64,000 bases of DNA from Pegethrix bostrychoides GSE-TBD4-15B (GTDB lineage: Bacteria; Cyanobacteriota; Cyanobacteriia; Elainellales; Elainellaceae): NCBI GenBank assembly GCA_019359155.1, contig JAHHHV010000064.1, positions 1 through 64,000 on the forward strand, written 5' to 3'. Made by a program: the position numbers and the translations under genes. Position 1 is the first letter of the stretch. Each line of letters begins with the position of its first letter. Below the pieces are notes generated by a model. The model worked only from the letters and a program-made list of their open reading frames with translations, searched no databases and was not told the DNA's origin. This document shows, piece by piece, positions 24,246 to 64,000 of the stretch.

Positions 24246-24480
24246 ATCATCATTTAGATTACGATTGTTCAATTCCTGGGTCTGAGCAGGGCAATTAGCC
24301 TAAGCGGGGCCAGGAGTTTTGATAGATTTAGGTCAGGCTGGTCGCTAGCGCGGTCGGCCTGATTTTAGGTTCAACGAGATTTTGGATCGGGATCGCGCGG
24401 AGCTGAACGCGCCTGCACCCAAGTCCGTGAGGCAGCTTTACAACTCGCAGTAAATTTATTACAATAAAAACGTAGTCGTT

Positions 24481-46975: not shown

Positions 46976-46989
46976 CTAGAACAGCGCCA

Positions 46990-48588
46990 TCAGGCTGAAT
47001 CGGCAGATGGATTGCCCCGGCTAGCTTCAGCATCGTTTTTAGCGTCAGCTTTGGCATCGGCAAGTCGGTCACTGGTGAACTGGCTGGGAATGTCTTCGGG
47101 TAGGAGTGTTGTCAGCACCTCGTCGGTGAAGTCCGAGAGAACGGCGAGTCGGTTGGCTTGACGCTCAATACTCTTTTCAAACAGATTTCGCACAATTCGA
47201 GCGTTGCCAAAGGTGCGGTCGCGGTTGTTATAAAGGCTGGTAAATACCTCTTTGAGCCGATATCGAGTGGCATCGGTGAGCTTAAAATGACTCTTAGCGC
47301 AAAATTTCTCAAAGATGGCCAGCAGCTCCTCTGGCTCGTAGTCATTAAAATAAAAGTAGCGATTGAATCGAGATTTTAGGCCAGGGTTCGATTCAATAAA
47401 CTCTGACATCTCATCAGTATATCCAGCTACGATCACGACTAGCCGATCGCGATAGTCTTCCATGCGCTTCAGCAAGATGTCAATCGCTTCCTGGCCAAAA
47501 TCACGACCCGCATCGCTAGGCACTAGCGCATAGGCTTCGTCAATGAACAGCACGCCGTCTAAGGCTGAAGTCACCAGCTCATCCACTCGCTTAGCCGTTT
47601 GGCCAATATAGCCCGCCACCATGCCAGCTCGATCGGTTTCGATTAGGTGACCTTTCTGGAGGAAACCCAGCCCTTGAAAGATGCGGCTAATCAAACGTGC
47701 AATTGTGGTTTTACCTGTGCCTGGTGGCCCGCAAAATACGGAATGCAGCGAGACTGAAGTGGTAGCCAACCCCCGATCCTGACGAATCTTTTGCACCTTC
47801 AGAAAGTTGGCCAGTGTCTTAATTTCTGCTTTAATATTGTCCATTCCCACGAGATCATTCAGCTCAGCCATCGCCTGCTCCAAAATCTGGGCTAGCTCTT
47901 CTGCGGTCTTATCGAGCGCAGCAACAGGTTCGGTAGGGGCTGGACTCGGAGCTATGGGAGCCGGAGTAGATGGACTCACAGGCGCGACGTTCGTCGATTC
48001 AGTTGGCAGGGCAATCGGCGCAACCTGAGCCAGACCGTCCTGATAGCGGCTAATTTTTGGGTAGTGATGCAGCAGTTGCCAAACTTGAGAGAGTGCTTCC
48101 ATCTCCTGCATCGTAATAGCTCCATCTGACTTAACAACCGACTGTGCAAATTTGTAGATGGCGTTCACAGATGGGTTCAGGTAGCTGGAAGATTTCTCTT
48201 GATCATACTGGTTCAGCACTGCTGGGAGCCAAAGCTGCTCAAGCTGGCTGGCATCTCCTTGCTGCCCTTTTGTGATATCCAGCAAGATCTGGAGCGATAT
48301 TTTCTGATACTTCAGCCGATCTGCATCCGAAAAGTCCCAGGCGTTGAAGGCGGCATTTAGCATTGCGCTGTCCTGCTTGATCAGGGCGTAGAGGCTAAGG
48401 TAGGCCAACAGCTCATTGGCTGAAATCTCGCCGTTGCTGCGTCCGCAAATTCTGACGATCTTGGCCAAGTCAGTCAAAATCAAATCGCCAAACTTTGGCT
48501 CGACCGCCAGCAGTGGCTTGAGCGTCTGATAGAGCCTCTCGGCTTCTTGACGCACCATTCTCGCATTGACAAGCTGCGTAAAATTCAC
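46990..48588 (-). CDS. TerB-like domain fused to CbbX/SpoVK-type AAA ATPase
   Basis: A GTG at 48586-48588 is chosen because TAGGAG lies eight bases upstream; the frame extends to a TTG at 48630. The 532-residue protein has a helical N-terminal half with two TerB-like repeats (about 15-95 and 100-170: ...KSDGAITMQEMEALSQVW). A Pro/Ala/Ser linker follows, then an AAA domain with Walker A GPPGTGKT, Walker B VLFIDEAYAL, and sensor/arginine segments FNRYFYF and NARIVRNLFE. The AAA part is of the CbbX/SpoVK type, which can remodel RuBisCO or spore proteins; here the TerB domain suggests a stress or membrane role. It lies 101 bases below the toxin-antitoxin genes. Confidence 0.88.
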   Translation of the reverse strand: MNFTQLVNARMVRQEAERLYQTLKPLLAVEPKFGDLILTDLAKIVRICGRSNGEISANELLAYLSLYALIKQDSAMLNAAFNAWDFSDADRLKYQKISLQILLDITKGQQGDASQLEQLWLPAVLNQYDQEKSSSYLNPSVNAIYKFAQSVVKSDGAITMQEMEALSQVWQLLHHYPKISRYQDGLAQVAPIALPTESTNVAPVSPSTPAPIAPSPAPTEPVAALDKTAEELAQILEQAMAELNDLVGMDNIKAEIKTLANFLKVQKIRQDRGLATTSVSLHSVFCGPPGTGKTTIARLISRIFQGLGFLQKGHLIETDRAGMVAGYIGQTAKRVDELVTSALDGVLFIDEAYALVPSDAGRDFGQEAIDILLKRMEDYRDRLVVIVAGYTDEMSEFIESNPGLKSRFNRYFYFNDYEPEELLAIFEKFCAKSHFKLTDATRYRLKEVFTSLYNNRDRTFGNARIVRNLFEKSIERQANRLAVLSDFTDEVLTTLLPEDIPSQFTSDRLADAKADAKNDAEASRGNPSADSA

Positions 48589-48689
48589 AAGGCTGACTCC
48601 TAGAGCATGGGTCGCGAGCATCAGTCGCAATTGGAGTTTAGCAAGATTTTAATCACCCCGCCCAAGAATCCGATATCCAGGAATTGGGT

Positions 48690-49106
48690 CTAGACAGTTT
48701 GCCAGAGCTGTCGCCAATTCTCAGTTTGTAGGCCAGGAACTCGATTAAATTCTCGTTGATTTGCTGTAATCATCAGAAGGCTGTGTTGCAGTGCAGTAGC
48801 CGCAATCAGGACATCGTAAGCACCAATTGGCTGTCCTTGAGATTTGAGGGCAGCACGAATTTGAGCCGCTTGCTCTGCTTCTACAATGCTGAGAGGGAGA
48901 ATCGTTACAGAAGATAGAAAGCTAGAGATCACTGGTTCAACTTTCTGAGCACGTTGCAAATTGAGTGCCAATCCATAGCGTAATTCCATAACCGTAATTG
49001 CTGAAACGGCAATATCAACAGGTGGAGTTTGCTTGAGTCTGACTTGGGTGCCAGCTTCACCCTTAACGAAGTCGCTGATAACGCAAGTGTCGAGTAGATA
49101 TCGCAT
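48690..49106 (-). CDS. PIN-domain toxin (VapC-like)
   Basis: The 138-residue protein starts MRYLLDTCVISDFVKG with the first PIN acidic residue, followed by VSAITVMELRYGLAL (second acidic) and PIGAYDVLIAATAL (third). It ends with ITANQREFNRVPGLQTENW, as in VapC toxins, which cleave RNA, often initiator tRNA. The start overlaps the antitoxin stop by one base (TGATG), the classic toxin-antitoxin arrangement. Confidence 0.92.
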   Translation of the reverse strand: MRYLLDTCVISDFVKGEAGTQVRLKQTPPVDIAVSAITVMELRYGLALNLQRAQKVEPVISSFLSSVTILPLSIVEAEQAAQIRAALKSQGQPIGAYDVLIAATALQHSLLMITANQREFNRVPGLQTENWRQLWQTV

Positions 49107-49348
49107 CAGAATAGCTCTGGATCAGGGGGTGGAAGGAGTTCGTCACGGGAGGACTCGAACGGAAGGAAATCAGGGGTTCCTTCATAGGACAAGATAATCT
49201 CCGACCACTGGGAGATGGGACTAGGTAGCGTTTGAATCGTCCGGCGTAAGGCTTGTAGAATCAGTGTCTGAAGCGGAACATTAGATTGTGCTGCTTGACG
49301 CATCAAGTCTTGTTCAAGATCTGGCGGTAGGTTGATTGTAATTTGCAC
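49106..49348 (-). CDS. Ribbon-helix-helix-like antitoxin (VapB-type)
   Basis: The 80-residue product has a short beta strand and helices (MQITINLPPDLEQDLMRQ, then SNVPLQTLILQALRRTIQ) that match a DNA-binding N-terminus, and an acidic, Pro-rich C-terminal tail (SSRDELLPPPDPELF) for binding the PIN toxin. Start is GTG at 49346-49348 with AGGAAAA upstream. It precedes the toxin and probably represses the pair. It is 22 bases below the NACHT gene stop and may be cotranscribed. Confidence 0.85.
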   Translation of the reverse strand: MQITINLPPDLEQDLMRQAAQSNVPLQTLILQALRRTIQTLPSPISQWSEIILSYEGTPDFLPFESSRDELLPPPDPELF

Positions 49349-49370
49349 AGTATATTTTCCTCGCGTTTAA

Positions 49371-52300
49371 CTACTTACTCTTCGGCATAGGTTGCTGCTC
49401 AACTGTAGGAGGAAAAATATGGTCGAACCACTGCTTAAACTCTTCGTTAAATACGCCGCTTACAGTCATTGATAGTGGTATGGCAATTACTGCCACGAAA
49501 ATCCCAATCACAGTGAGCCAGTTTCCCCAATTAATTCCTTGCTTGGCATCGGAACCAGGAATAATCACTTGGCTATTAGTTACTCCACTTGTACCAATAG
49601 GGGCATTAATGGGTGAATTTGGCGAATTTGAAACGGTGATATTATTTTCGATTTTTGGTTCATCTTCCATTTTCTTTGTTCTCTGATCTACTACATCAAT
49701 TTGATTGGACAAGTCTAAGTTTGAAGGTTCTCGGCTAATCACAAGCTGAAGAAACTCTTCTGGTGTCAAAGGTTGCCAACTTTTACGCCGCAGATTCGCT
49801 TGAGCATCAATCAACGCTTTTCCAAGCCAAGTAATATCTGGCAGTTTTTGAATGAGACGTTGAATTTCAGCACATGCTAGGGGTGTTCCTCGTTCCTTTA
49901 ACTGTGACAAAATACTGTCTCTCAGCCTTGAGATACCGTCCCTAGCTGTCACAGAATAAGCCATCACCTCATTGCTATGATCAAGATCTTCTTCATAAGG
50001 ATATTGATGCACTAGCCAGACATATAAGTCAGCCAACTGCGCTTCTGTCAGATTTAGTTGAATTCCGTGCGAATAACGTTGAGCAGCTAATTCGAGAACT
50101 TCACGTCCAAATGATGAATCTTGCTGAATCAATGACCAAATAAACGACCAACTAGATGGATCTGAATTCTCAACTAGCACTCTAGAAGCAATCAGAACCT
50201 TCTCACGTTCATCCTCAGCTGATGGCAATGGAAAAGAAATTAGGGACTTCGCAAAATCTTTAGCTTCAGTTAATCCTTGGTTTAGAAGCTCTTCGAGTAG
50301 CTGCCCGACACATTTTGGTTTCAGTGCATAATCTTTAGACTTTTCTAACAGAGCCAACTTCAAGCGCTCATCCCAACACTTCTCAAAGCGATTAACTACA
50401 GATATATAGTCAGACTCCTGGTTCTCTTTATCAATGAGCGTTATCAGTATATTAATGGATGCTTGAGGAGCATTCAGATAAGCGCATTTGACTATTTCTA
50501 GATAAGAGTCTTCGTATTGATTACTACGAGGGACAGCAATAATAACAGGTGCCCATTTTTTCCATATTTCAGATGAGAGGGTGTCTAAGAAATCCTTGCT
50601 TTCTTTCACAAGTAGCTGTAAAGCTCTACAACCCGCTAGTGCTGGTCGATCGAAAGTATTTGTCCCTATCCATTCATAATCTATCTCATTCTGCTTCTGA
50701 ATATAACTTTTAGCACCTTCAATAATTCTCTTTTGAGTAGCCTCTTCTGCCTCTTGCCATCCAGGAAGCTGAGTTAGATCTAATTCAAACTCACTGCCAT
50801 AGTGTGTACTATCAGGCTTGAGAGTCATTTCTATATTAAGCTGCCACCAAGCAGATAAATCTCCAGATTCTAATTTCTCTAAAAGTCGGAGGACTCGTTC
50901 CTTGGGGAGTGGATCTAGCAAAGGAGAATTTTGCCTGCGTTCTCGCATTTCTTGCATTCTAAGGTGATCAGCTCTCAGATTGTCAGCTTGAGTTGAACCC
51001 AGCTCGATTGGTACAAAGTAAGATGCAAAAACTTCCTGTAGAATATCATTAGTTTGAGTAACTAAAACAATTGCATCTATTTGCTGTGCATCTTGATAGT
51101 TAAAGCTCCGTTGGAGAAGTTGAGACCAAATCCTTTCTGCCCTCTCATGATTGAAATTTTTGAGTTTTTCAAGCATCCAAAAAACATCTTCTGAAATTAT
51201 AATATTTTCGATTAGGGGGCTTAAAAGAAAATATGGATCTTCTTTTGTTTCTGAAATAATTAAAACTGCTTGCTCGATTAGTGTATGTCGTTTTTTGCTA
51301 TCTTTCAAAAGCGATGATTCAAATTGTTGTTGTAGCTTGCCATCATCAGTAATGATTCTCTGATGCGCTTTCCACTGTACTAAGGCCGTCTTAGTAAAAC
51401 TTTCTGCTACTCCAGGAAGGTCAAGATTTTCCCATACCTTCAAGAGAATGGCATTCCCAAGCTTTTCAAAGGGATGTCCAAAACACCTAATACCTTGATT
51501 TCCAAGCCAGTTAAGGACAACTACTAAATCATCTAGCTGAAGTCTTGGTACTAACTCAATGTCGATAAATATCTGGTACGATCCAAGGAAATTTCTCTTT
51601 TTTGGTCGGGTAAGAACACTGAATAACTCCTCTGCTGTGAGAGACTCTGACCAGAGCGCCCGTAATGCGTAACCTTTTAGCCGATCGTCCTCATCTTCTT
51701 GTAGTTGTTCAATGGCTAAGGGCTTAAGCTTTAATCTTATATCTGCATCACCAATTGAACAAATAGCCTTAGCTGCGCTCGCTCTCAAGTAAATTGATTG
51801 TGATGAGTCAAGCGAAAGATTTGCTAGTTCTTCCTGAAGCCCAGAGACTTCGCAAACTTCGGCAATGTCAATCGCTCTATTTCTTGCGTCAATCTGTTTG
51901 GTAGAATCCTGAATATATGGACGTAATTGAGCAGCTAAACCTGGATGCTTCAACTTTCCATAATTTCGGTATTGGTTTCCTTCATGGTCATACAACTCTT
52001 CCTGTTCATATTGCATCAATAAGCTGGTTACGATCGCTTCTCGAAGATTAGATTCTGTAGAAATATCACTGCGTAATAACACATCTGGATCAGTCTTTAT
52101 GATATCTTGAAGCACATCCATCCTCATGCTAGCTAGCCATGCAGCAGTTTCATGAAGCTGAGGAATAAGCTTATGCTCTGAATCTTCAGACGAAAATAGT
52201 AATGTTCTTAATGTAGCAAGCGGTATTTCATGTTGTGTTAAATACCAGGCTGCTAAAAACTCAGCATAAGTCTGGTGTGCCCACCCCATTTGGTGCAACC

Positions 52301-53348
52301 CACGAGACGAGAACAAACCGGTGTCTAAAATTTCCTCAATGACTGCTCTGGTAATCTCAAATTCTCTTCCGCTAGCAGTTTCATAACCGTGACACATTTT
52401 TTGAAGAGGTACATCGTCAGCAGGTATCTCCCCTTGATTAACTCCAGCCCATACAGCAAAGCGGTTGGAAAGGATTGTGATAGCCGCAATTCGAGCAGCA
52501 ACAATTAGACGTTGATCAATATCAAGATTACCTCTTCGGTTTGAACCCCGACGGCTTTCATTATTTTCCTCACAGAGAAGCTTGCACCCCTGAAGGTAGA
52601 GTTCATTCTGATTAGGAGGGAATTGGCCACCGTGACGGCGGTAAATATTCAGCAGAAATCCCAGAGTGACTGGCTTTATCGCTAGCGATACAATATTTTT
52701 CTGCCCAACTTCCCTTAGAAAATCATCAGGAGAAAATCCCTCAGCTTCTGCGGCTACGATAACGTCAACAAGCCGAAGCGGAGCTAGCTCGTATACTCCT
52801 AAAGAACTTTCACCCCAAATTTCCTTCAACCCTTCTTCAAGAACTGGTGGCCATACAGCCGTTCGACAAGCAATACGTAAACATAGACGGTGAATCACAT
52901 CCCGGTGACGTTTAAATTCATCAACTAAGAGTGTTGCTAAGGTATCTACTCGTAGCAAGCATTCATCGAAACTATCCAGGAAAATATATAATTTGTGGGT
53001 GCCTGTCTGCCACGCTTTAAATTCTGAGCTGTCGAATAGGCTGCGAACTAATCTGTCCTCACTCCCATACGAGCGAAGATCTATGAAAAGCGCTCGATCA
53101 CCTTGTTCTTGAATTTTATTAACAATTTCACTTCGCTCTACCTCTAGAGCTTGGGTTTTGCCAATTCCCGGTTCACCTAAAAGCGCTAAGCATGATAGGT
53201 GAGAGATGGTCTCAAAAGTTACTAAATCTGGGTTATATGCCTTGCCCCATTCTCCATCTGGATCGCACAGGTAGCCTCGATCAGCTAGGTTAATGCTGCC
53301 TGTGCGAGGACACCAAAATCGTTTCCAGCCATATACTTGCTTCGCCAT
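49371..53348 (-). CDS. NACHT/STAND-type NTPase with helical repeats and C-terminal membrane helix
   Basis: From the ATG at 53346-53348 this is a 1325-residue protein. A short N-terminal region (residues 1-50, YGWKRFWCPRTG...YNPDLVTFE) precedes the NTPase. Walker A is LLGEPGIGKT (residues 56-65). Walker B is LYIFLDSFDE (119-129 region), with the paired acidic residues of NACHT proteins. A winged-helix-like module then leads into about 800 residues of HEAT-like helical repeats (for example SIYLRASAAKAICSIGDADIRL). The end has a Asn/Ser-rich segment (residues about 1240-1265), one TM helix (LTVIGIFVAVIAIPLSMTV) and a short tail. STAND NTPases of this kind sense ligands and often guard against phage. 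The gene is visibly AT-richer than its flanks, suggesting transfer. Effector and trigger are unknown. Confidence 0.82.
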   Translation of the reverse strand: MAKQVYGWKRFWCPRTGSINLADRGYLCDPDGEWGKAYNPDLVTFETISHLSCLALLGEPGIGKTQALEVERSEIVNKIQEQGDRALFIDLRSYGSEDRLVRSLFDSSEFKAWQTGTHKLYIFLDSFDECLLRVDTLATLLVDEFKRHRDVIHRLCLRIACRTAVWPPVLEEGLKEIWGESSLGVYELAPLRLVDVIVAAEAEGFSPDDFLREVGQKNIVSLAIKPVTLGFLLNIYRRHGGQFPPNQNELYLQGCKLLCEENNESRRGSNRRGNLDIDQRLIVAARIAAITILSNRFAVWAGVNQGEIPADDVPLQKMCHGYETASGREFEITRAVIEEILDTGLFSSRGLHQMGWAHQTYAEFLAAWYLTQHEIPLATLRTLLFSSEDSEHKLIPQLHETAAWLASMRMDVLQDIIKTDPDVLLRSDISTESNLREAIVTSLLMQYEQEELYDHEGNQYRNYGKLKHPGLAAQLRPYIQDSTKQIDARNRAIDIAEVCEVSGLQEELANLSLDSSQSIYLRASAAKAICSIGDADIRLKLKPLAIEQLQEDEDDRLKGYALRALWSESLTAEELFSVLTRPKKRNFLGSYQIFIDIELVPRLQLDDLVVVLNWLGNQGIRCFGHPFEKLGNAILLKVWENLDLPGVAESFTKTALVQWKAHQRIITDDGKLQQQFESSLLKDSKKRHTLIEQAVLIISETKEDPYFLLSPLIENIIISEDVFWMLEKLKNFNHERAERIWSQLLQRSFNYQDAQQIDAIVLVTQTNDILQEVFASYFVPIELGSTQADNLRADHLRMQEMRERRQNSPLLDPLPKERVLRLLEKLESGDLSAWWQLNIEMTLKPDSTHYGSEFELDLTQLPGWQEAEEATQKRIIEGAKSYIQKQNEIDYEWIGTNTFDRPALAGCRALQLLVKESKDFLDTLSSEIWKKWAPVIIAVPRSNQYEDSYLEIVKCAYLNAPQASINILITLIDKENQESDYISVVNRFEKCWDERLKLALLEKSKDYALKPKCVGQLLEELLNQGLTEAKDFAKSLISFPLPSAEDEREKVLIASRVLVENSDPSSWSFIWSLIQQDSSFGREVLELAAQRYSHGIQLNLTEAQLADLYVWLVHQYPYEEDLDHSNEVMAYSVTARDGISRLRDSILSQLKERGTPLACAEIQRLIQKLPDITWLGKALIDAQANLRRKSWQPLTPEEFLQLVISREPSNLDLSNQIDVVDQRTKKMEDEPKIENNITVSNSPNSPINAPIGTSGVTNSQVIIPGSDAKQGINWGNWLTVIGIFVAVIAIPLSMTVSGVFNEEFKQWFDHIFPPTVEQQPMPKSK

Positions 53349-53715
53349 GTTGAACCGCAATGAGGGCAAAACTCTTTTTCAAGGATAGCCTCATTCAAAA
53401 GTCTTTGTGTCTTGTCCTCTAGCTCAAGTAATAGCTTGACCGAATTGATCTTATCGGATTTTGAATTTCAACAAATGGCCCTTCAAGTTGTAGAGCCAAC
53501 TGGTATCTTGAACAGACCAAAAATCCACTGGTTAACCAGTCTCTGCCCGTCTAGCCAGAGTTGGCACAACTTAGCTAGGAATGTGGAAATTGGAGGTGAA
53601 GTAACCAGCTAGAATTGCATTCAACGCAGCTAGACAGGCCCAAGGTTTTCGGCAAGCATATAGACTTGCCACTTGCTGTATTTTCCTTCATTTTGACAAA
53701 CTGCTCGCCAAAAGC
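53349..53715. other. Gap upstream of the NACHT gene
   Basis: No supported gene; a plus-strand 66-codon frame (53412-53612) has no family features. The NACHT promoter should be here. No attachment site or inverted repeat is evident. Confidence 0.3.
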
Positions 53716-55107
53716 CTAATTCCCTGCAATGCCCTCAGCTCTGGCAGCATGTTGAACGGCAGCGGATACAGTTGGAGCAACACGTTCATCAAATACTGAG
53801 GGAATGATATATTCTTTGTGCAAATCAGCAGGCTTAATCAACGAAGCAATCGCCTCAGCTGCCTCCAGAAACATGCCAATGCTCATCGTTTTAGCCCGAC
53901 AGTCTAACGCGCCTCGGAAGATGCCAGGGAAGGCCAGCACATTGTTGATTTGGTTCGGATAATCGCTGCGTCCGGTCGCCATCACCGCCACATCTTCAGA
54001 GACTAGTTCTGGCTGGATCTCTGGAATCGGGTTAGCCATTGCAAAGACAATCGGATCAGCTGCCATTGACTTGACCATTCCGGGCGTGACCACTCCCGGC
54101 GCACTCACGCCCATGAACACATCCGCGCCCACCATCGCATCTGCCAGCGAACCCGACTGCACCACCGCAAACTCGCGCTTCTGGTCGTTCAGGTCACTGC
54201 GGCTGCTAGACAAAATGCCGCGTGAGTCGCACATCACAATCTGCTCAACGCCCGCCTTGCGAAACAGCCGCGCCATCGAAACGCCCGCTGCCCCCGCGCC
54301 GTTGATCACCAGCTTGATCTGCTCTTTGGATTTCTTCACCAGCTTTAGCGCGTTCATCAGCGCCGCCAGTGAGACAATCGCCGTGCCGTGCTGGTCGTCG
54401 TGAAAAATCGGGATATCTAGCTCCTGCTGAAGTCTTGCCTCAATTTCAAAGCAACGCGGGGCGCTAATATCTTCCAAGTTGATTCCGCCAAACACAGGCG
54501 AGATATTTTTGACGGTGGCAATAATTTCGTCAGTCTCCTGCGTCGCCAGACAGATCGGGAAAGCGTCAATCCCGGCAAACTCCTTGAACAGCATCGCCTT
54601 GCCTTCCATCACCGGCAGCGCGCCCATCGGCCCTAGATTGCCCAGCCCCAGTACTGCGCTGCCGTCAGTGACAATCGCCACCATGTTGCTTTTAACCGTC
54701 AGCTCATACACCTGCTCCGGGTCGTTGGCAATCGCCGTGCAGATCCGCCCGACTCCTGGCGTATAGGCCATCGCCAGCTGATCCTGGCTCTTTAATGGCA
54801 GCTTGCTCTGGACGCTGATTTTGCCGCCCCGGTGCAGGCTAAAGGTGCGATCATAGACGTTGATCACCTGGATTTGATCCAGCGCTCGCACGGCAGTCAC
54901 AATTGCATCGGCATGGTCAGCGCTCGAAGCGTTGATCGTAATGTCGCGGGTCATCTGCTTGCGCGTCTGCTCAATAACATCAATCTGGCCAAAGCTGCCT
55001 CCGGCTGCCCCAATCGCCTGCGTCACTGCTGCCAGCATCCCCGCCTGATTGGGCAACTGAATCCGCAGTGTCAGGCTAAAACTGGGGTTGGGGGTGAGAT
55101 TGACCAT
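53716..55107 (-). CDS. ACT-domain malic enzyme (NAD(P)-dependent)
   Basis: The ATG at 55105-55107 gives 463 residues (MVNLTPNPSFSLTLRIQLPNQAGM...). Residues about 10-90 are an ACT domain (MLAAVTQAIGAAGGSFGQIDVI), absent from most malic enzymes, suggesting amino-acid or other allosteric control. Then come the malic enzyme motifs AYTPGVGRICTAIA, GDLG-equivalent LGNLGPMGALPVMEGKA, PIFHDDQHGTAI, the cofactor motif NGAGAAGVSMARL and the metal region of DSRGILSSSRSDLN. It converts malate to pyruvate and CO2. The longer frame to 55233 looks non-coding before this start. Confidence 0.92.
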   Translation of the reverse strand: MVNLTPNPSFSLTLRIQLPNQAGMLAAVTQAIGAAGGSFGQIDVIEQTRKQMTRDITINASSADHADAIVTAVRALDQIQVINVYDRTFSLHRGGKISVQSKLPLKSQDQLAMAYTPGVGRICTAIANDPEQVYELTVKSNMVAIVTDGSAVLGLGNLGPMGALPVMEGKAMLFKEFAGIDAFPICLATQETDEIIATVKNISPVFGGINLEDISAPRCFEIEARLQQELDIPIFHDDQHGTAIVSLAALMNALKLVKKSKEQIKLVINGAGAAGVSMARLFRKAGVEQIVMCDSRGILSSSRSDLNDQKREFAVVQSGSLADAMVGADVFMGVSAPGVVTPGMVKSMAADPIVFAMANPIPEIQPELVSEDVAVMATGRSDYPNQINNVLAFPGIFRGALDCRAKTMSIGMFLEAAEAIASLIKPADLHKEYIIPSVFDERVAPTVSAAVQHAARAEGIAGN

Positions 55108-55331
55108 ATTAATTTGCTGCCTTGCTTTGACTGAATCGTTAGACGGGTAACGCAATTGTAGCGATGAGCCTTGCCTAGTATAAAAGAGGCTCTGCTCACT
55201 GGCTGTGTTGAGACGCACATTTGTAAGACGCACATTTGTAAAAGGCGTAAAAACAAAAAGCGTAAAATCCGTAGTTAGCGGTGAGAGCAGCAGGGGTAAG
55301 GTAGTGAAAGCAGGTCTCTCACGTTTGCGCC

Positions 55332-55763
55332 ATGCCCAGCCTCTATGCCGAAATTGAAATTAGCGCTCCCAAATCGGTGGTCTGGCGGACGCTGCTCGAC
55401 AAAGCCCACTGGCTGCGCTGGAATACTTTCTTGTTTGACCGCAATCCGCAGCTAACCTTTACCCAGGGGCAGACTGTACAGCTCTCGCTCAAACGCCTGC
55501 GCGAAGAAACCGAAACCGAATTTGATCCCAAAATTCTGCTACTCCAGCCCGAAACCTGCCTGCGCTGGGGCTATCGCGCTCCGGGCTTCAAAAGCGAGCA
55601 TCTGTTTGAACTGCAAGAAGTGGGGCGCAACCGCACGCAGTATCTGCACCGCGAAAGCCTGTCGGGTCTGATGTCGCCCTTCTTCCTGTCGTTTCTGCGT
55701 CAGGACGAACAGCAGGGGATGCAGCGGATGGCGCGGGAGCTGAAATATTATCTAGAGAGATAA
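55332..55763 (+). CDS. SRPBCC family protein
   Basis: The 143-residue protein opens ASLYAEIEISAPKSVVWRTLLD-like (PSLYAEIEISAPKSVVWRTL) and keeps the START-like pattern LRWNTFLFDRNP, then HLFELQE and a C-terminal helix (DEQQGMQRMARELKYYLE). It should bind a hydrophobic ligand. It is divergent from the malic enzyme and 405 bases upstream of the aldolase gene on the same strand. Confidence 0.82.
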   Translation: MPSLYAEIEISAPKSVVWRTLLDKAHWLRWNTFLFDRNPQLTFTQGQTVQLSLKRLREETETEFDPKILLLQPETCLRWGYRAPGFKSEHLFELQEVGRNRTQYLHRESLSGLMSPFFLSFLRQDEQQGMQRMARELKYYLER

Positions 55764-56168
55764 AAGCCTGAGTTCCGACTAATTTGTCTAGCTTCAGCCA
55801 CAGCTTCAGTCACAGCTTCAGCTAGACCGGCAGGCTGCTAGTGACAATGAACGGCAAGTCTACAGTGATGGAGCATGAGCAAATTCGCCAGCACCCCTTA
55901 CCTCGATCCCACGAGTCTGCCCTCGATTCACCTTATTGCTAAGATTTTTGAGCTAACTCAGCTATAAAATGCCCTTAAGCATTTATACTTAGGGTAGGGA
56001 GAATTGGCTTCAGGGATTTTTTGTTTCAAACGAAATTTAGGCTCTGCTGAAGCTGCTGCCGAATTGCCTCGAAATCAATCGATACAATTCGCGGGAACGC
56101 GCAAAGTATCTTAAGATCATCTTTAGAATTTGTCTCACGCTGACTACACCAATTAGGAGGAAATCTCT
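55764..56168 (+). promoter_or_regulatory. Upstream region of the aldolase gene
   Basis: No supported gene; a 31-codon frame near 55876 has no family features. TATAAAAT at 55963-55970 is followed at once by an imperfect inverted repeat (CCCTTAAG/CTTAGGG, 55972-55994) that could bind a regulator. The strong Shine-Dalgarno AGGAGG is at 56155-56160. Confidence 0.45.
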
Positions 56169-57248
56169 ATGGCACTTGTGCCCATGCGGCTACTGCTGGA
56201 TCACGCCGCCGAAAACGGATACGGCATTCCGGCCTTCAACGTCAACAACATGGAGCAGATCCAGTCCATCATGCAGGCTGCTCACGAAACCGACAGCCCC
56301 GTGATTTTGCAGGCTTCGCGCGGCGCTCGCAAGTATGCTGGCGAGAATTTCCTCCGTCACCTAATTTTGGCTGCGGTGGAAACCTACCCCCATATTCCCA
56401 TCGTCATGCACCAGGATCACGGCAACGAGCCTGCCACCTGCTACTCGGCGATCAAAAACGGCTTCACCAGCGTCATGATGGACGGCTCGCTGGAAGCCGA
56501 TGCCAAGACCCCGGCTAGCTACGAGTATAATGTCGCCGTCACCAGCGAAGTTGTGAAGGTGGCGCATGCGATCGGCGCTTCGGTGGAAGGCGAGTTGGGC
56601 TGCCTCGGTTCTCTGGAGACCGGCAAGGGCGAAGCAGAGGACGGCCACGGCTTTGAGGGTGAGCTGGATCACTCGCAGCTCTTGACCGACCCCGATGAGG
56701 CCGTTGACTTCGTGGAGCGCAGCCAGGTGGACGCACTGGCGGTAGCGATTGGCACCAGCCACGGAGCCTACAAGTTTACCCGCAAGCCAACGGGTGAAAT
56801 TCTGGCGATCAGCCGAATCGAAGAAATCCACAGCCGCCTGCCCAACACGCACCTGGTGATGCATGGCTCCTCTTCGGTTCCCGAAGACCTGCTGGCACTG
56901 ATCAACCAGTACGGCGGCGCGATTCCCGAAACCTACGGCGTGCCCGTAGAAGAAATTCAGAAGGGGATCAAGAGCGGCGTGCGGAAGATCAATATCGACA
57001 CCGACTGCCGCTTGGCGATTACGGCTGCCGTGCGCGAAGCTCTGGCCAAAGACCTGAAGGAATTTGACCCGCGTTCCTTCCTCAAGCCGTCGATCAAGTA
57101 CATGCAGAAGGTCTGCGCTGACCGCTACAGCCAGTTTGGTACTGCCGGTAACGCCAGCAAGATCAAGCAGGTGGGCGTGGAAGTCTACGCAGCCAAGTAT
57201 GTCAAGGGCGAGCTGACTCAGGTGGCGAAGAAAGCGGTTGGAGTCTAG
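56169..57248 (+). CDS. fba: Fructose-bisphosphate aldolase, class II
   Basis: The 359-residue protein starts [31 protein letters not shown] and has the class II metal-site motifs [31 protein letters not shown] and VMHGSSSVP. It matches the Calvin-type (CfxA/FbaA) aldolases used by cyanobacteria for both fructose and sedoheptulose bisphosphate formation and for glycolysis. AGGAGG eight bases before the ATG predicts strong translation. A strong terminator follows. Confidence 0.97.
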
Positions 57249-57281
57249 ATTAGGCCTCAGCTTAAATTTGGTTTAGATAGA

Positions 57282-57310
57282 AATCGGGTGGCTTGCCACT
57301 CGATTTTTTT
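57282..57310 (+). terminator. Rho-independent terminator of fba
   Basis: AATCGGGTGGC pairs with GCCACTCGATT (one G-U) with a tight loop and is followed by TTTTTTT. It lies 33 bases after the aldolase stop. On the minus strand the hairpin has a weaker T-tract and might also end the CHAT-CHASE2 gene. Confidence 0.9.
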
Positions 57311-57364
57311 GCCAGTTTTTACTAAGATGCTGCATGAAGCCAGTATTTCTAGGCATAAACACTT

Positions 57365-59890
57365 TTAGCGACGCAGGCTGAGGATCTCTGGCAGTAGATA
57401 GAGCCAGAGTACCGTGATCGGCAGAACAATTGGCAGTAAAATAGCGGCTGAGGATACGTAAAGCTGAAGACTAAGGAGAATATAAAAAATCGTGCCTATT
57501 GCCCAATAGAGCATAGCTCTTGAGCGAGCTGAACTTGCCGACGAACTGTACTGATAGGATTGCGTCGCTCGTTGGGCAGTCAACGCGAGTTTGCCAATCA
57601 CCGCAGCCAGCAAAACCATCAGCAGACTGGGCACAGGAATCACGAAGCGCTGATGCAGAAAATGGTGGAACAGATAGCCAAGATGTTCGCCACCCGTCAT
57701 TTGTCGATAGTGGTTTTCGGGCTGACGGCCATACCAATGCTGCATCGCTTTAGGCGGCGTAAAGTTTTCCAGATAGCCAATGCCGTTATCGGTTTGGGCA
57801 ATGCCTGCTTCTGGGTAGCCGCCCGCAGTAATAATTGCGCTTCGGGGTAGATCTGCCAAATCACTGGTAGGCTCTAACAGCTCCCAAGCCGGAATTTCGC
57901 GGTAGATCTGCTCGGGTGGAATCGAAAAATCGGTGATGGCATGGAACCACATTGGGTAAAGTGAAAGCCTGCCCATGAGCGCATCCAGCAATTCGCTGAG
58001 CGGTAGGCGGTACTGCGGCAGCGCGCCTGCGGTGGACTGATGGCGATGCAGCCAGCTTAGCCAGTAGGAAAACGGCAGGTCGAGGCTGCTGTCAAAATTA
58101 GACTGGATCGGCATGTGAAAGTTATCGCCCACAGCCCGGATTGCCGGAGCTTCGATATTGCCCTGAGTAATCTCTGATAGGCTCTGCATCCAGATATTGC
58201 TATTAGGATTGAGAATTTTGGCAAATACAAACTGACCGCCATTTTTCACTGCTTGCTGAATAATTTTAGATAAATATAGCGTGTGCTCAGCGCCACGCGG
58301 ATCGGGATCATCCATTACGTAGTCAATCCCAATCACTTTAACGCTCTGATTGGTCAATGTTGACACTAACTTTCCAATATACTGCTGCGATATTGGAAAC
58401 GCTGAGCCGCCTATTATTTGCTCGCCCTGCTTGTCTTTCTGAATCGAAGCGTCATCAATTCGGACGAGCGCTAGATCGCTGGCCAAATTTAGCCCCTGAT
58501 TTGTGAGCTGATCTGTGAGCTGCCGATACCAGGCTTGAACTAGCTCTCGCTGATCCAGCAGCCCAATTTGCATCCAGGGTAATATACTCAGAAAAATACA
58601 GAGCAGCAGTGCTATAGCTTCCTGGGGTTTGGGTAATAGCCAGTTAATGCCCTGTCGCCAGTTTGGTAGGCTGAGCAGAAATGAAGCCGTGCCGGGACGC
58701 TGAAACAGTGAAGGGACAAGATAGGCTGAGGGATACTCTAATTTGTCCAGCGAAGCGACAGCCTCTCGCATTGCCCTATGAGCTGTTTTATACTCTTTGA
58801 GGCCGCTGGCAAACTGCACCAAAAACGCCTGCGCCACTCTGCTGTGAATTCGCTCGCGCATCACAATCACTTCGTTCAAGCCCAAGTCAATCAAGGCGGC
58901 AGCAATTTGTAGGCCGCTGCAAGAGTTGAAGATGGCTAGCTGTAGCCCCTGATTCTTGGCAGTCGTCAAGGAGGGCTTGAGATCCTCAATTGTGATGTAC
59001 TCATTGGGTGCAATCGCCACCATGCCGCTAGTTGCTTTTGTCTCATCGCTGTGGCCTGCAAAAAACAGCATATCCCAACCTCTAGGGTCGGTGATGGCCG
59101 CTAAAATACTCTGCCGCAGGTCGCGGGTGGGCTGGGGGACGGAGTCGCTGCCCCAGCCGATCATCTGCACCGACACCAGCGGCTCCAGTGATTTGAGGAT
59201 CTGCTTTTCCTGACTCAGATCCAAGCCGAGATCATCACAGAAGATAGCCAAAATCCGGACGCGCTTCCAGCGAGCGCGCTGCGGCATGCGGCTGCTGCGA
59301 ATCCGGCTAGGGGTGCGAACTAGGCGAATTTTGTCGAGCACTGCCTGATCGTCTGAAATCTGCCAGTTTTCCCAGGGAAGCCGCACCAGGTCATCGGGTT
59401 CGCAGGTCAAAAACACGTTGAGTCCTAGCTTTGAGCCGCGAGCCGCATTGGTCAGCTCTTGGCGAATATCTCTGAGCGCACCCTCAGCCAGCCAATCGCG
59501 GAAGGCTTGTAGCAGAGCTGTTTCAGCTTCTTTGAGCTGGGTTTTCCAGTCAATTTTGGGATCAATGCTGCCGCTCTTAGCCACATAGGCACGCAGGGCT
59601 TGAGCAGATGTCTGAATGGGTGTTTGAATGGGTGTTTGAATGGGTGTTTGAATGGGTGTTTGAATGGGTGTTTGAATGGGTGTTTGAATGGGTGTTGGAA
59701 TCGGGTCTTGAACAGGCAGCCAGGTCTGATAAAAGTTGAGATAGAGCTGCTGCCAGTTTTGATAGAGCCGATCGAGCTGAGCTGGATAGGAATGGCGCGC
59801 ACTGGTGGACTGTGACTCGCCCCAGGCTAGCTCAAACTGGCAAATAGTCTCGAATCGAGTGACTTTGAGCCGAAATTCAGCGAGCATCAT
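57365..59890 (-). CDS. CHAT protease-CHASE2 transmembrane sensor protein
   Basis: The start is ATG at 59888-59890, 2 bases after the stop of the upstream gene; the protein has 841 residues. A TPIQ repeat (about residues 65-93) follows a short N-terminal region. A CHAT domain (caspase-like) spans about 155-460: FFAGHSDE gives His280 and FNSCSGLQ gives Cys324, so the catalytic dyad is intact. One TM helix (about 475-495) is followed by a CHASE2 sensor domain (about 500-770: DLALVRIDDASI..., VIGIDYVMDDPDPRG). Three closing TM helices lie before the C-terminus. CHASE2 is extracytoplasmic, so an outside signal could control a cytoplasmic protease. Linked CHASE2 proteins usually end in kinase or cyclase domains; the CHAT here is N-terminal. 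Substrate unknown. Confidence 0.9.
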   Translation of the reverse strand: MMLAEFRLKVTRFETICQFELAWGESQSTSARHSYPAQLDRLYQNWQQLYLNFYQTWLPVQDPIPTPIQTPIQTPIQTPIQTPIQTPIQTPIQTSAQALRAYVAKSGSIDPKIDWKTQLKEAETALLQAFRDWLAEGALRDIRQELTNAARGSKLGLNVFLTCEPDDLVRLPWENWQISDDQAVLDKIRLVRTPSRIRSSRMPQRARWKRVRILAIFCDDLGLDLSQEKQILKSLEPLVSVQMIGWGSDSVPQPTRDLRQSILAAITDPRGWDMLFFAGHSDETKATSGMVAIAPNEYITIEDLKPSLTTAKNQGLQLAIFNSCSGLQIAAALIDLGLNEVIVMRERIHSRVAQAFLVQFASGLKEYKTAHRAMREAVASLDKLEYPSAYLVPSLFQRPGTASFLLSLPNWRQGINWLLPKPQEAIALLLCIFLSILPWMQIGLLDQRELVQAWYRQLTDQLTNQGLNLASDLALVRIDDASIQKDKQGEQIIGGSAFPISQQYIGKLVSTLTNQSVKVIGIDYVMDDPDPRGAEHTLYLSKIIQQAVKNGGQFVFAKILNPNSNIWMQSLSEITQGNIEAPAIRAVGDNFHMPIQSNFDSSLDLPFSYWLSWLHRHQSTAGALPQYRLPLSELLDALMGRLSLYPMWFHAITDFSIPPEQIYREIPAWELLEPTSDLADLPRSAIITAGGYPEAGIAQTDNGIGYLENFTPPKAMQHWYGRQPENHYRQMTGGEHLGYLFHHFLHQRFVIPVPSLLMVLLAAVIGKLALTAQRATQSYQYSSSASSARSRAMLYWAIGTIFYILLSLQLYVSSAAILLPIVLPITVLWLYLLPEILSLRR
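59613..59696. repeat. Seven 12-base repeats encoding TPIQ
   Basis: TGAATGGGTGTT is repeated seven times without change (59613-59696), then decays (GGAATCGGGTCT). The repeats keep the CHAT-CHASE2 frame and add a flexible spacer. Copy number is likely variable between strains. Confidence 0.95.
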
Positions 59891-59892
59891 GG

Positions 59893-61074
59893 TTATTCGC
59901 TGGGTTGTTTGCTGGGGGCAAAGCCAAACGGGGTCAGCGTCAGCGCAGCACCAGTCGGTGCAGTCACCGTGACTCGAAACTGCTCGTCTGGGGCACCCAC
60001 AAGCCAATTGTAAAGGTAAGGCTGATCACTCAGCCGCTGTTCGCTCAGCAGTTCCTGATTGGCTTCTACCTTAAGCGTCAGGCCAACGGGTAAAGCGCCA
60101 GACTGTGCGCCCAAGATCAGCAGTAGCGACCATTGATCGGGGGCAGGCTCCCAGGTCAGCACGTAGAGCTTGAGGCGAACTTCTTCTAGCTCCAAGTCGC
60201 GTTCGGCAGCTCTGGCGCTAGTGGGAATGGCGATGCCCTGAGTCCCCTGCAACTCGCGCAGCACAGCATTGAGCAGGTCAGCTCCACCCATCATCGCACC
60301 GCTGAGGTTGAGTGCCGCAGGCGGCAGCAGATGCCAGGAGAGCGATTCGGCCACCTCATCTAGCCTGCCTTGCAGCCAAAGCCGCAGGTTAATCAGATTG
60401 GGAGGAGCCAAGCTGACTTTAGGTGGCTGAACGGGTGGCTGAACGGGTGGCTGAACGGGTCGCTGAGCAGATTGCTGAATTGGGGCGGCGCTGAGCTGAG
60501 CGCGCAGTTGCAGCAATAGCCCTGCTGGATCCGCAAATGCCTGAATGGGCAGGAAGCTCAAATCAGCGGCTTGCGGCAGGGCGAACTGAGCTTCGAGCTG
60601 GGCAAGGTTAAATTTCGCCTGCGGCAGATAGCCCTGTATCCGCACTTCTGAGAGTTCTTCGAGGACTTCGACGAGCAGATAGAAATCAGGCCGATCTGCC
60701 GCATCTAGTTTGGGAACGCCCACCAGCGGATCGGCCAGACAGTCGGTGATCAAGAGATGCAGCCGCGACCGAGCAATTTGAATCTGGCTGACGGCTTGAC
60801 TCAGACCAGTTTGATTCAACTCAGGAGCCGCGCCACGCAAGTCCTCAGCCTGCAAAAAATCACTCTCTATCTTAATCTCAGGCGACCGCTTAGCCAGCCA
60901 TTCTTGCAGTCCCAGCAGCGCCAGACTGTTGAGATAGGTTTGCCACTGCTCAACCTCGGTGCTGGCCTGATGAGCCAGCTCAATCGCCTGCGTCACCTGG
61001 GCAGTCGTTAGGGTAATGCTGCCTGAGGTCAGGACATGTGCGCTCAAGGTGTCGTCTTGCATAAAACTCATCAT
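59893..61074 (-). CDS. DUF1822 family protein
   Basis: The 393-residue protein begins with the DUF1822 region (LTTAQVTQAIELAHQASTEVEQWQTYLNSLALLGLQEWL). Residues about 200-225 are a low-complexity PVQPPVQPPVQP linker encoded by 12-base repeats. The C-terminal part is beta-rich (KLYVLTWEPAPDQWSLLLILGAQSGALP, then FRVTVTAPTGAALTLTPFGF). DUF1822 proteins are cyanobacterial, without known function, and recur beside CHAT/CHASE2 genes as I recall. It lies two bases before the CHAT-CHASE2 gene, so the two must be coupled. Confidence 0.85.
   Translation of the reverse strand: MMSFMQDDTLSAHVLTSGSITLTTAQVTQAIELAHQASTEVEQWQTYLNSLALLGLQEWLAKRSPEIKIESDFLQAEDLRGAAPELNQTGLSQAVSQIQIARSRLHLLITDCLADPLVGVPKLDAADRPDFYLLVEVLEELSEVRIQGYLPQAKFNLAQLEAQFALPQAADLSFLPIQAFADPAGLLLQLRAQLSAAPIQQSAQRPVQPPVQPPVQPPKVSLAPPNLINLRLWLQGRLDEVAESLSWHLLPPAALNLSGAMMGGADLLNAVLRELQGTQGIAIPTSARAAERDLELEEVRLKLYVLTWEPAPDQWSLLLILGAQSGALPVGLTLKVEANQELLSEQRLSDQPYLYNWLVGAPDEQFRVTVTAPTGAALTLTPFGFAPSKQPSE
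60425..60460. repeat. Three 12-base repeats encoding PVQP
   Basis: GGCTGAACGGGT occurs three times exactly (60425-60460), with a diverged fourth copy. It codes for PVQP units in the DUF1822 protein, parallel to the TPIQ repeats of the next gene. Confidence 0.9.
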
Positions 61075-61168
61075 GTCAATATACTCCGTGAATTTTGAGA
61101 AATAAAGCTTGAGAACTTAGAAAATGTGAATTTAGCGCCTATTTGTAGCGCCTGGAATTTAGCGCTAG

Positions 61169-62743
61169 CTAAGCGATGGCCTGACTGAGCGATTGATTGA
61201 GCGATTGACAGATGCAGAGGGCAATCTGTCCGGTCGAGCCAGTCCGATTTGGGCTGTAGACTTCGGCGCGATAGTCATCCAGCAGGCGGTCAATCAAGGC
61301 GCTGAGGGAACAGAAGCAGGGTAAATCGGCTGAGATGCGGCGGATTTGCGCGCGCCATTCGTCTGGTTCAGCCCGGTCGCCCGAACGCTTGGCCGCCTCG
61401 GTAGCTTCAGCGTTCGCCAGCCGACTCATAAAGGTGGTTCGCTCCTGCTCTAGCTGCTCTAGCTGCTCAGGCTCAAAAATCTCCTGCAACAGCTGAGGCA
61501 GCTCCGCACCGATCCGCAGCAGCCAGCGTTGATGCAGATCGGCCTGGAGTTCGGGTAGCTCCAGCAGGCGACTCACCTGATATTGCTGAGTTAGCCCTAC
61601 CTGCGGCGCAATCTGGCTCATCGACTGCCCCTGACCGTGAAACAGCTGCATGGCTCGCAGATAGGCTTGGTGCTTGGGTGGCTGAGCGGTTCGGCCTCGG
61701 CGCTGCAAATAGACCACCCGCTCCGCCAGCAGCCGATCGACCGTTTGCTGTAAGCAGGCTTGAGCTACCTGCCGATAGGCGCTCAAAAACTGCTCCTGAG
61801 TTTGCTCCGACTCAGCAGACTGCACCGCTCCTTGCTCAATTTTCTGCTCTGCCTGCCGCCCAATTGACTCTAGATCCAGCGACAGCGGCTTGGCCTTTAG
61901 CTGCCGTAAATGCTGAGCCAGCTGCCGCAGATTTTTGAGCAGCTGCAGCGAATCGCTGGCCGGCAACTCAGCCAGCATCCGCTGCAGCTGCTCAGCCGTT
62001 GGCTCACCGCATCGCGAGCCGCCCAGCCGCTGCGCCAGTCGGTCGCCCCGGTAAACGCGCTGAAAACTCTCCAGCAGCTGGCAGTACTGCTCTAGTTCAG
62101 CGGGCATCAGCATTCTGGCCAACAGCCGCCTCAGTCGCTCTGGGGTCGCCTGTAGCAAGAGGCTCCAATCGGTGGCAATGTAAGTGCCGTAGTCTTCTAG
62201 CAAAACGTGATTGAGCGCTTTATCCTGCCAGACCAGGCGTTTTGTCCAGGTGCTGAGGTTGCTTTGCTGCGGGTCAAACTGCCGCAAAATTCGCAGCGTT
62301 AGCGGCTGGTAGCTGCCCAATTCCGCCATCGGATCCGGATCATCTAACAGGTGAGGATAGAGATCGGCGCGCTTAAAGCCTGCCCGGATGCCAAACTGCT
62401 GCTCTAGCTCTAGGCAAGCCCGCTGAATTTGGTGGCAGACAAAGCAGCGCAGACAGGCCAGCGCCAGCCGCATCGTCACCGGATCACCTGCCTGCTTTAG
62501 CTGCACCAGCTGCCGCTGCAGATCTCGATCTGCCAGCTCCAGCAGTCCCGGAGTCTCCAGCAGAAATAGTCGCGCCGCGCTCAGCTCGCGGATTTGCAGC
62601 CGATCAGATTGCTCCAGTCTCGGGTACGTCCAGTAGCGGTGGGCAGCCTCAATGGCCCGTCCCGGTCTATGCACAGAGCCTCCTCCGGTTCGTTGATCTA
62701 GCTCACAGTTTATCGGCATTCTTTGACTCACTCTCTGACTCAT
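61169..62743 (-). CDS. Sigma-70-like cyanobacterial protein (atypical, putative regulator)
   Basis: The 524-residue protein resembles the atypical proteins annotated as sigma-70 family in cyanobacteria: LTLRILRQFDPQQSNLSTWTKRLVWQDKALNHVLLEDYGTYI in the middle. A region near residues 360-395 (MQLFHGQGQSMSQIAPQVGLTQQYQVSRLLEL) fits a helix-turn-helix of region-4 type. The N-terminus is helical with a CLRCFVCHQI segment. Canonical sigma regions 2.3/2.4 are not clear, so promoter recognition is uncertain. A start at 62719 (MPINCEL) is a close alternative. It is 94 bases upstream of the DUF1822 gene and forms with it and the CHAT-CHASE2 gene a minus-strand trio. Confidence 0.75.
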   Translation of the reverse strand: MSQRVSQRMPINCELDQRTGGGSVHRPGRAIEAAHRYWTYPRLEQSDRLQIRELSAARLFLLETPGLLELADRDLQRQLVQLKQAGDPVTMRLALACLRCFVCHQIQRACLELEQQFGIRAGFKRADLYPHLLDDPDPMAELGSYQPLTLRILRQFDPQQSNLSTWTKRLVWQDKALNHVLLEDYGTYIATDWSLLLQATPERLRRLLARMLMPAELEQYCQLLESFQRVYRGDRLAQRLGGSRCGEPTAEQLQRMLAELPASDSLQLLKNLRQLAQHLRQLKAKPLSLDLESIGRQAEQKIEQGAVQSAESEQTQEQFLSAYRQVAQACLQQTVDRLLAERVVYLQRRGRTAQPPKHQAYLRAMQLFHGQGQSMSQIAPQVGLTQQYQVSRLLELPELQADLHQRWLLRIGAELPQLLQEIFEPEQLEQLEQERTTFMSRLANAEATEAAKRSGDRAEPDEWRAQIRRISADLPCFCSLSALIDRLLDDYRAEVYSPNRTGSTGQIALCICQSLNQSLSQAIA

Positions 62744-62873
62744 CTCTCGCCATCTTGAAGTAGCGACTGGCTCCGCGAACCTATGCAGATTGCTGTCAAA
62801 TTGCTTGCAGATTCAGGCCAGACTACTTGCAGATAGGTGCAAATAGGCGCAAATCAGGAGTCTAGCGCAGAAG
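62744..62873. promoter_or_regulatory. Upstream region of the sigma-like gene
   Basis: This part of the 334-base divergent spacer holds a short TGCAGATT/TGCAGATA-type direct repeat and no gene. It should include the promoter of the sigma-like/DUF1822/CHAT-CHASE2 set. Confidence 0.35.
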
Positions 62874-62903
62874 AAAAAACCCCAGCCAAGCGCATGACTG
62901 GAG
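62874..62903 (-). terminator. Minus-strand terminator-like hairpin facing hemL
   Basis: Read on the minus strand, CTCCAGTCA pairs with TGGCTGGGG (two G-U) and is followed by TTTTTT (62879-62874). No minus-strand gene ends here: the next gene to the right, hemL, runs the other way. Confidence 0.6.
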
Positions 62904-62992
62904 CTTTGATCCCGTTTTACTGCCAGCAATCTATCAGACCAAGCTGAGATTTTGCTGAGCCTGAGCGACCAGAAAATCTCGGTTTTTTCAGG

Positions 62993-63059
62993 TTAATCGC
63001 TGTCAATCGTGCAGGAGCATGTCACCATAAATAGAGGTTAAAGACCGATTAATCGCTGT
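62993..63059. repeat. 11-base direct repeat flanking the hemL promoter region
   Basis: TTAATCGCTGT occurs at 62993-63003 and 63049-63059, on either side of a CCATAAATAGAG stretch that could contain the -10 box of hemL. A regulator-binding role is possible but untested. Confidence 0.5.
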
Positions 63060-63077
63060 GGCAAGTAGGAGAGCGTT

Positions 63078-64000
63078 TTGGTTACTACAACTCTTAAGAC
63101 AACCCGATCAGAAGAAATTTTCGCGGCAGCCCAGAAGCTGATGCCGGGGGGAGTCAATTCTCCGGTGCGCGCCTTTAAGTCCGTTGAGGGACAGCCGATT
63201 GTGTTCGACCGGGTGAAGGGAGCCTACATCTGGGATGTGGACGGCAATCAGTATATTGACTATATCGGCACTTGGGGACCAGCCATTTGCGGACATGCCC
63301 ATCCTGAAGTTTTGGCGGCGCTCAGAGATGCGCTGGAAAAGGGCACGAGCTTTGGTGCGCCCTGCTATTTGGAAAACCTGCTGGCCGAAATGGTGATTGA
63401 TGCCGTGCCCAGCGTCGAAATGGTGCGCTTCGTCAACTCTGGTACCGAAGCCTGCATGGCCGTGCTGCGCTTGATGCGCGCCTTCACTGGCCGGGACAAG
63501 GTGATCAAATTTGAAGGCTGCTATCACGGTCACGCAGATATGTTTTTGGTCAAGGCTGGCTCTGGGGTCGCCACGCTGGGCTTGCCCGACTCTCCCGGCG
63601 TACCCAAGTCTACGACCGCCAACACCCTGAACGCGCCCTACAACGATCTGGAGGCTGTGAAGCGGCTGTTTGCTGAAAATCCCGGCGAGATCTGCGGGGT
63701 GATTCTGGAGCCTGTGGTGGGCAATGCGGGCTTTATTGCGCCAGATGCGGGCTTTTTAGAAGGGCTGCGGCTCATCACCCAAGAGGCCGGGGCGCTGCTG
63801 GTGTTTGACGAAGTGATGACGGGCTTCCGGATCGCCTATGGCGGCGCACAGGCGAAGTTTGGGGTCACGCCAGATCTGACCACGATGGGCAAGGTGATTG
63901 GCGGTGGTCTGCCCGTCGGAGCCTATGGCGGACGGCGCGAGATTATGCAAATGGTGGCTCCGGCTGGCCCGATGTATCAAGCCGGAACGCTGTCTGGCAA
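63078..64000 (+). CDS. hemL: Glutamate-1-semialdehyde 2,1-aminomutase (partial, 5' end)
   Basis: The gene starts with TTG at 63078, with AGGAGAG just before it, and runs off the right edge; 307 codons are present. The protein begins (M)[32 protein letters not shown] and continues with [69 protein letters not shown] and [16 protein letters not shown], where the Lys in TMGKVIGGG binds PLP. It makes 5-aminolevulinate from glutamate semialdehyde, the entry step of tetrapyrrole synthesis that feeds ChlH and ChlM. The missing 3' part is about 120 codons by family length. Confidence 0.96.

Follow-up and report, generated by a model that had tools for sequence, protein, structure and literature searches.

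Three genes follow each other on the minus strand of the window, the 64,000-nt stretch of cyanobacterial DNA analysed here. They code for a sigma-like protein, a DUF1822 protein and a membrane caspase-like protease that combines a CHAT with a CHASE2 domain (Table 1). Coordinates and strands confirm the tight order described in the earlier note, with gaps of 94 and 2 bases. The longest CHAT frame begins with a TTG at 60007, within the DUF1822 gene, while the ATG at 59890 yields the 841-aa protein. By Pfam, the set is flanked by housekeeping genes, an aldolase and a hemL-like aminotransferase. Elsewhere in the window, three minus-strand genes at 45722-53369 code for an unknown protein of 417 aa, an AAA ATPase of 546 aa that carries AAA_lid_6, and a protein of 1332 aa that matches AAA/NPHP3-like and HEAT domains weakly; they are possibly a NACHT/STAND-like system. 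Rfam places 6S RNA at 24060-24246 (plus strand) and NsiR1 at 20262-20314 (minus strand).

Table 1. Features of the operon and their positions in the window.
Feature	Position	Strand	Evidence
Sigma-like protein gene, 524 aa	61169-62743	minus	hhalign to relatives matching sigma factors; AF2
Region-2-like stretch, about residues 94-185	62189-62464	minus	hhalign
Region-4-like helix-turn-helix, about residues 357-400	61544-61675	minus	hhalign
DUF1822 protein gene, 393 aa; proposed anti-sigma factor and candidate substrate	59893-61074	minus	Pfam, AF2, Foldseek, sigma pairing
Pro-rich low-confidence linker of DUF1822, residues about 196-228	60391-60489	minus	AF2
Membrane caspase-like protease gene (CHAT-CHASE2), 841 aa	57365-59890	minus	Pfam, dyad, hydropathy
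12-bp tandem repeat, PIQT units, N-terminal part of protease	59608-59704, within 59588-59719	minus	
CHAT domain, residues 158-381	58748-59419	minus	Pfam PF12770, E 3.6e-10
Catalytic codon His280	59051-59053	minus	homologue alignment
Catalytic codon Cys324	58919-58921	minus	homologue alignment
CHASE2 domain after first TM helix, residues 443-565	58196-58564	minus	Pfam PF05226, E 7.5e-11; hydropathy
Candidate operon promoter TGCATAGGT-N16-TA (TGCATAGGTTCGCGGAGCCAGTCGCTA)	62761-62787	minus	upstream-region alignment, relatives, genome count

The domain order claimed for the protease, an N-terminal CHAT domain, a membrane helix, CHASE2 and three further helices, is borne out by Pfam and hydropathy. 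The latter places one helix before CHASE2 at about residues 418-447, and three behind it, at 744-775 and (two) within 792-840. The His280/Cys324 dyad lies exactly where it had been assigned, and both residues are invariant in 70 out of 70 aligned protease homologues. In the same alignment, the region before CHAT is conserved as well (L21, Y43, W46, Y50, W133), and this N-terminal module probably represents EACC2. The C-terminal sensor module varies: reading the sequences, we find CHASE2, periplasmic-binding-protein-like, P-loop NTPase and TPR types (CHASE2 n = 58, other n = 12). Units related to the 12-bp PIQT repeat occur in the adjacent DUF1822 gene (about 60420-60459, within 60403-60486), where they code for the similarly Pro-Gln-rich PVQP. 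A PADLOC match of the protease to REase_II was discarded as an artefact of the PIQT repeat. The protease shares the CHAT domain with HetF, a cyanobacterial CHAT protein of cell division, but is not HetF, scoring 10.8 bits with the NCBIfam equivalog against a cut-off of 1200.

Neither the architecture nor the gene set is new. In Trichodesmium, CHASE2 is likewise fused to a caspase-like protease, and this CHASE2-metacaspase was already noted in 2010 (PMC2853523); the accessible part of that paper classes it as a peptidase C14 metacaspase and describes no sigma-DUF1822 operon. The accessible part of Kaur et al. 2021 (eLife, PMC8195603) describes EACC2-caspase proteins with a constant N-terminal part and variable C-termini including CHASE2, and finds an ECF sigma factor gene together with a DUF1822 gene in the majority of neighbourhoods that lack TRADD-N. 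That prediction was made from gene neighbourhoods only, and the window operon fits it: we find a caspase domain with a His-Cys dyad, a variable C-terminal sensor and sigma and DUF1822 neighbours, i.e., the same caspase-fold protease beside the same partners. No experimental study of the gene set was found in the literature searched, which excluded most subscription journals. The system is thus real, conserved and already predicted. Our additions are a promoter-like element, candidate targets, the core pair, a link to DUF928 and a corrected DUF1822 fold; as far as the accessible text goes, Kaur et al. mention neither promoter element nor targets nor DUF928.

The sigma-like and DUF1822 proteins

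The designation "sigma-like" has indirect support only. The window protein has no direct match in Pfam or NCBIfam, and none of 32 members of its clade matches a sigma model. Sigma-like proteins come in two types, A (long, including that of the window) and B (short). Over 366 columns, the window clade aligns with further type A proteins (hhalign 99.6%, E 4e-24), and these relatives, mostly from CHAT-less loci, match solved sigma factors, with E 4.4e-11 in region 4 and E 8.5e-5 to 0.002 in region 2. It is through this homology that the name is supported. A region-2-like FDP...TW motif is conserved. The AF2 model is all-helical (pLDDT 86.7), and Foldseek found no confident fold match for it. Homology of type B to type A was rejected, as there is no convincing similarity and hhalign does not support it. 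Lone type A genes without DUF1822 or CHAT were observed at L162:5650-7008 and L163:5819-7333, the latter followed by an RTX gene.

The DUF1822 assignment of the second protein is clear (Pfam E 1.6e-23). In its AF2 model (pLDDT 86.2), a linker joins an alpha/beta domain at the N-terminus to a beta-sandwich at the C-terminus. For the sandwich, Foldseek gave no more than weak matches, to SoxZ- and CARDB-like domains, and moderate partial matches of the model to small uncharacterised phage proteins; no solved anti-sigma fold was matched. Kaur et al. 2021 (PMC8195603), in the accessible text, label DUF1822 a TPR protein. The fold predicted here disagrees, since AF2 and Foldseek reveal no TPR-like array in the window protein. 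PDB sequence matches to MHC class I were dismissed as short chance matches. The linker region is longer and conserved in CHAT-less DUF1822 relatives, and several CHAT-linked DUF1822 proteins retain a structured linker; a disordered linker is therefore a clade trait and not a signature of the protease. Linker length was likewise abandoned as a sign of cleavage, because CHAT-linked DUF1822 proteins have shorter linkers, not longer ones.

Conservation of the gene set and a fourth gene

Loci were collected from many cyanobacterial genomes, partly by similarity to the window protease and partly by DUF1822. In the earlier note, a gene order or a CHAT dyad that is not conserved would have refuted a coupled system. 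The genes are neighbours in many cyanobacterial genomes, and together with the conserved dyad this neighbourhood supports the coupling that the earlier note had proposed. A sigma-like gene lies directly upstream on the same strand in 85 of 92 DUF1822 genes, and a CHAT gene downstream in 65 of 92. In the sample chosen by DUF1822, the respective numbers are 38 and 22 out of 43. As the pairing persists without CHAT, sigma and DUF1822 form a stable core to which the protease is an addition, and the role that suits DUF1822 best is that of a sigma-factor regulator. Among sigma, DUF1822, CHAT and the C-terminus, pairwise distances are correlated at rho 0.75-0.84 (permutation maxima up to 0.35); part of this correlation stems from shared species history.

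The window genome (G000) harbours six DUF1822 genes, all with a sigma-like gene upstream and five with CHAT downstream, such that the window operon is one of five full copies. Judged from their sequences, three of the five proteases end in CHASE2 and two in periplasmic-binding-protein-like modules. The sixth DUF1822 gene lies on the contig of the window (G000:C64, about 109-111 kb), where L007:4780-6826 comprises a sigma-like gene and a shortened DUF1822 frame without CHAT. The DUF1822-matched region has two stops; this is a decayed or CHAT-free copy. Other arrangements were observed in single loci: two divergent DUF1822-CHAT sets around one sigma-like gene (L138), two tandem sigma-DUF1822 sets near CHAT genes (L158), and a CHAT-less sigma-DUF1822 pair in a cyanobacterial genome of only 1.7 Mb (G107, L170:4112-6606). 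Outside the class, nearly every listed genome of 1.6-2.5 Mb in group f30 matches DUF1822 once and weakly, with E between about 1e-6 and 1e-13 in most cases. A scan of named genomes returned only one close relative, a MAG of an uncultured cyanobacterium.

A fourth gene belongs to the DUF928 family. Its products have about 215-355 aa, 17 of 36 match PF06051 directly, and most carry an N-terminal signal-like stretch. The gene immediately follows that of the protease in 41 of 58 CHASE2-type loci vs 1 of 12 others (Fisher p 9e-5, which is optimistic given a biased locus sample with many related loci). It overlaps the protease gene in L105 and L116 and is on the opposite strand in L139. Downstream of the protease it is absent in the window and in four relatives of the same genus, one of which (L084) ends near the gene. 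DUF928 is most naturally understood as a secreted partner of CHASE2.

A promoter-like element and its candidate targets

An alignment of the sequences that precede the sigma gene in six close relatives led to the element TGCATAGGT-N16-TA, with a constant spacing of 16 bp between its two parts. In the window it begins 44 bp ahead of the start codon of the sigma-like gene. Among 39 held-out members of the clade, the exact element precedes the sigma gene in 9 (0.17 expected), and with at most one mismatch in 16 (1.37 expected). It is absent in its exact form upstream of the other type A genes (0/28) and of type B genes (0/15).

The 5.7 Mb genome contains four exact copies and none of the reversed pattern. 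Three of these lie 44-98 bp upstream of a start: 44 bp from the window operon, 45 bp from a gene for a 403-aa coiled-coil protein and 98 bp from an RTX gene. The fourth is located in antisense inside a gene. The coiled-coil gene adjoins a cluster for a PknG-like kinase, PP2C, vWA and FHA-zinc-ribbon proteins (L203:528-7571, G000:C7), which has two TGCATA-type sites; a one-mismatch site lies 54 bp upstream of the kinase gene. As a conserved target the cluster was rejected, for a homologous cluster in G320 (L226) lacks the element.

In relatives, a pattern search in 15 genomes gave 46 hits vs 31 in controls. This is a modest enrichment, clear in G386 only (9 vs 1), and single sites in relatives are thus leads only. 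In G436, the close RTX homologue (84% identical) is preceded by TGCATAGGT at 54 bp. G347 has it 145 bp upstream of an RTX gene that diverges from the sigma gene, and an RTX homologue (44%) in G011 comes immediately after a lone sigma-like gene. Sites in G386 and G347 precede genes for filamentous-haemagglutinin-type proteins of two-partner secretion (TPS), at 151 bp (L268), 182 bp (L273) and about 400 bp (L271). The TPS assignment of L268 is by Pfam (E 5e-47), those of L271 and L273 by sequence resemblance only, and the sites of the latter two are near-identical. In G342, the gene for a PPC-domain protein (L227) is preceded by a site at 87 bp. The recurrence of secreted proteins among these candidate targets was noticed post hoc. 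Three intergenic regions of G386 (L267, L268, L270) carry strikingly alike sites, TGCATACGTCT...AGAACCA, which suggests a paralogue-specific regulon. Both the G320 cluster without the element and the modest enrichment in relatives indicate that the regulon differs between genomes.

A proposed proteolytic switch and its rivals

Two known systems offer a precedent. In one (PMC10028731), the TPR-CHAT protein Csx29 cleaves Csx30, a sigma inhibitor; in the other, the Lon protease CalpL cuts the anti-sigma factor CalpT, which sets an ECF sigma factor free in the CalpL/CalpT/CalpS system of type III CRISPR loci (PMC11417357, accessible part). Both join a protease, a sigma inhibitor and an ECF-like sigma factor; the window operon has a parallel anatomy, with a membrane CHASE2 domain as the proposed sensor. 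Starting from the computed gene set, dyad, sigma-DUF1822 pairing and promoter-like element with its placement, we infer a signal, a topology, cleavage, inhibition and promoter recognition. CHASE2, between the membrane helices, would sense an envelope or external signal and activate the CHAT protease in the cytoplasm. DUF1822 would normally keep the sigma-like protein inactive; by analogy, CHAT would cut it, most simply in the disordered interdomain linker. The sigma-like protein thereby freed would direct RNA polymerase to TGCATAGGT-N16-TA promoters. In the window genome, these may serve the own operon, the PknG-kinase/PP2C/vWA/FHA cluster and the RTX gene, and in relatives secreted RTX, filamentous-haemagglutinin-type and PPC proteins. 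Several results count against this model: DUF1822 matches no solved anti-sigma fold, the structure predicted for the sigma-like protein has no confident fold match, the disordered linker is a clade trait and the regulon differs between genomes. We put the probability that one operon encodes such a transmembrane proteolytic switch at roughly 0.45, i.e., slightly below even odds.

A wider claim, tentative and on balance doubtful, would make the operon a CRISPR-free, membrane-sensing counterpart of CASP and Calp: a CHASE2-gated caspase, DUF1822 as a new class of anti-sigma factor, and a divergent sigma factor with a promoter class to itself, which switches on secreted surface proteins and the PknG-type cluster. 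Type III-E CASP/Craspase (Csx29, Csx30, CASP-sigma) likewise unites a CHAT protease and an ECF-like sigma in one locus, but is RNA-activated through Cas7-11, whereas a membrane CHASE2 sensor is found here. DUF1822 is likened to Csx30, the sigma inhibitor of Craspase, by locus anatomy. No CRISPR-like repeats were found in 48000-64000 and no cas gene adjoins the set. CalpL, as described in the accessible text, is a Lon protease with a SAVED sensor for cA4, neither a CHAT protein nor membrane-bound.

CHAT might instead process the sigma protein itself, like in pro-sigma activation, with DUF1822 as a positive cofactor or scaffold. The N-terminal 26 residues and the loop at 286-293, for example, would be candidate cut regions; both have pLDDT < 50, and sigma-like proteins of the window clade are longer than their CHAT-less counterparts. 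However, most homologues begin near window residue 27 and lack the N-terminal extension, and in both precedents, CHAT and Lon, it is the inhibitor that is cut and not the sigma factor; we consider this route unlikely. Alternatively, the sigma-like protein may be a helix-turn-helix transcription factor derived from a sigma factor, for which TGCATAGGT would be an operator instead of a -35 element. This would suit the missing sigma match in all 32 clade members, the SorC/LsrR-type helix-turn-helix matches that also appear, and a -10-like part that is weak except for one A. Against it stand the homology, along the full length, to relatives that match both sigma regions, the conserved region-2-like FDP...TW motif and the constant 16-bp spacing to TA, and we regard it as quite improbable.

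A link to immunity and cell death had been raised in the earlier note. Near to Kaur et al. 2021, the protease could be an autoproteolytic caspase effector of such a response, with sigma as a downstream or accessory output. Membership in the caspase superfamily, the multicopy state with exchangeable sensors and the autopeptidase activation proposed in the accessible text of that paper (PMC8195603) are in agreement with this. Against it, PADLOC gave a low-complexity match only and no defence family, CRISPR-like repeats are missing from 48000-64000, the flanks are housekeeping genes, and neither nucleases nor toxins appear among the candidate targets, which comprise exoproteins and phospho-signalling genes. 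The link is thus unsupported, and an immune effector appears improbable.

Returning to the proteolytic switch, our results suggest that the gene set relays signals from the envelope to the genes of secreted proteins. This multicopy family is widespread in cyanobacteria and was hitherto known from gene-neighbourhood prediction only. With the element, the candidate targets and the pairing of sigma with DUF1822, a vague proposal of apoptosis or immunity becomes a signalling pathway that can be tested with reporters. If the model is true, the protease-sigma switches of CRISPR loci would double as membrane signalling routes.
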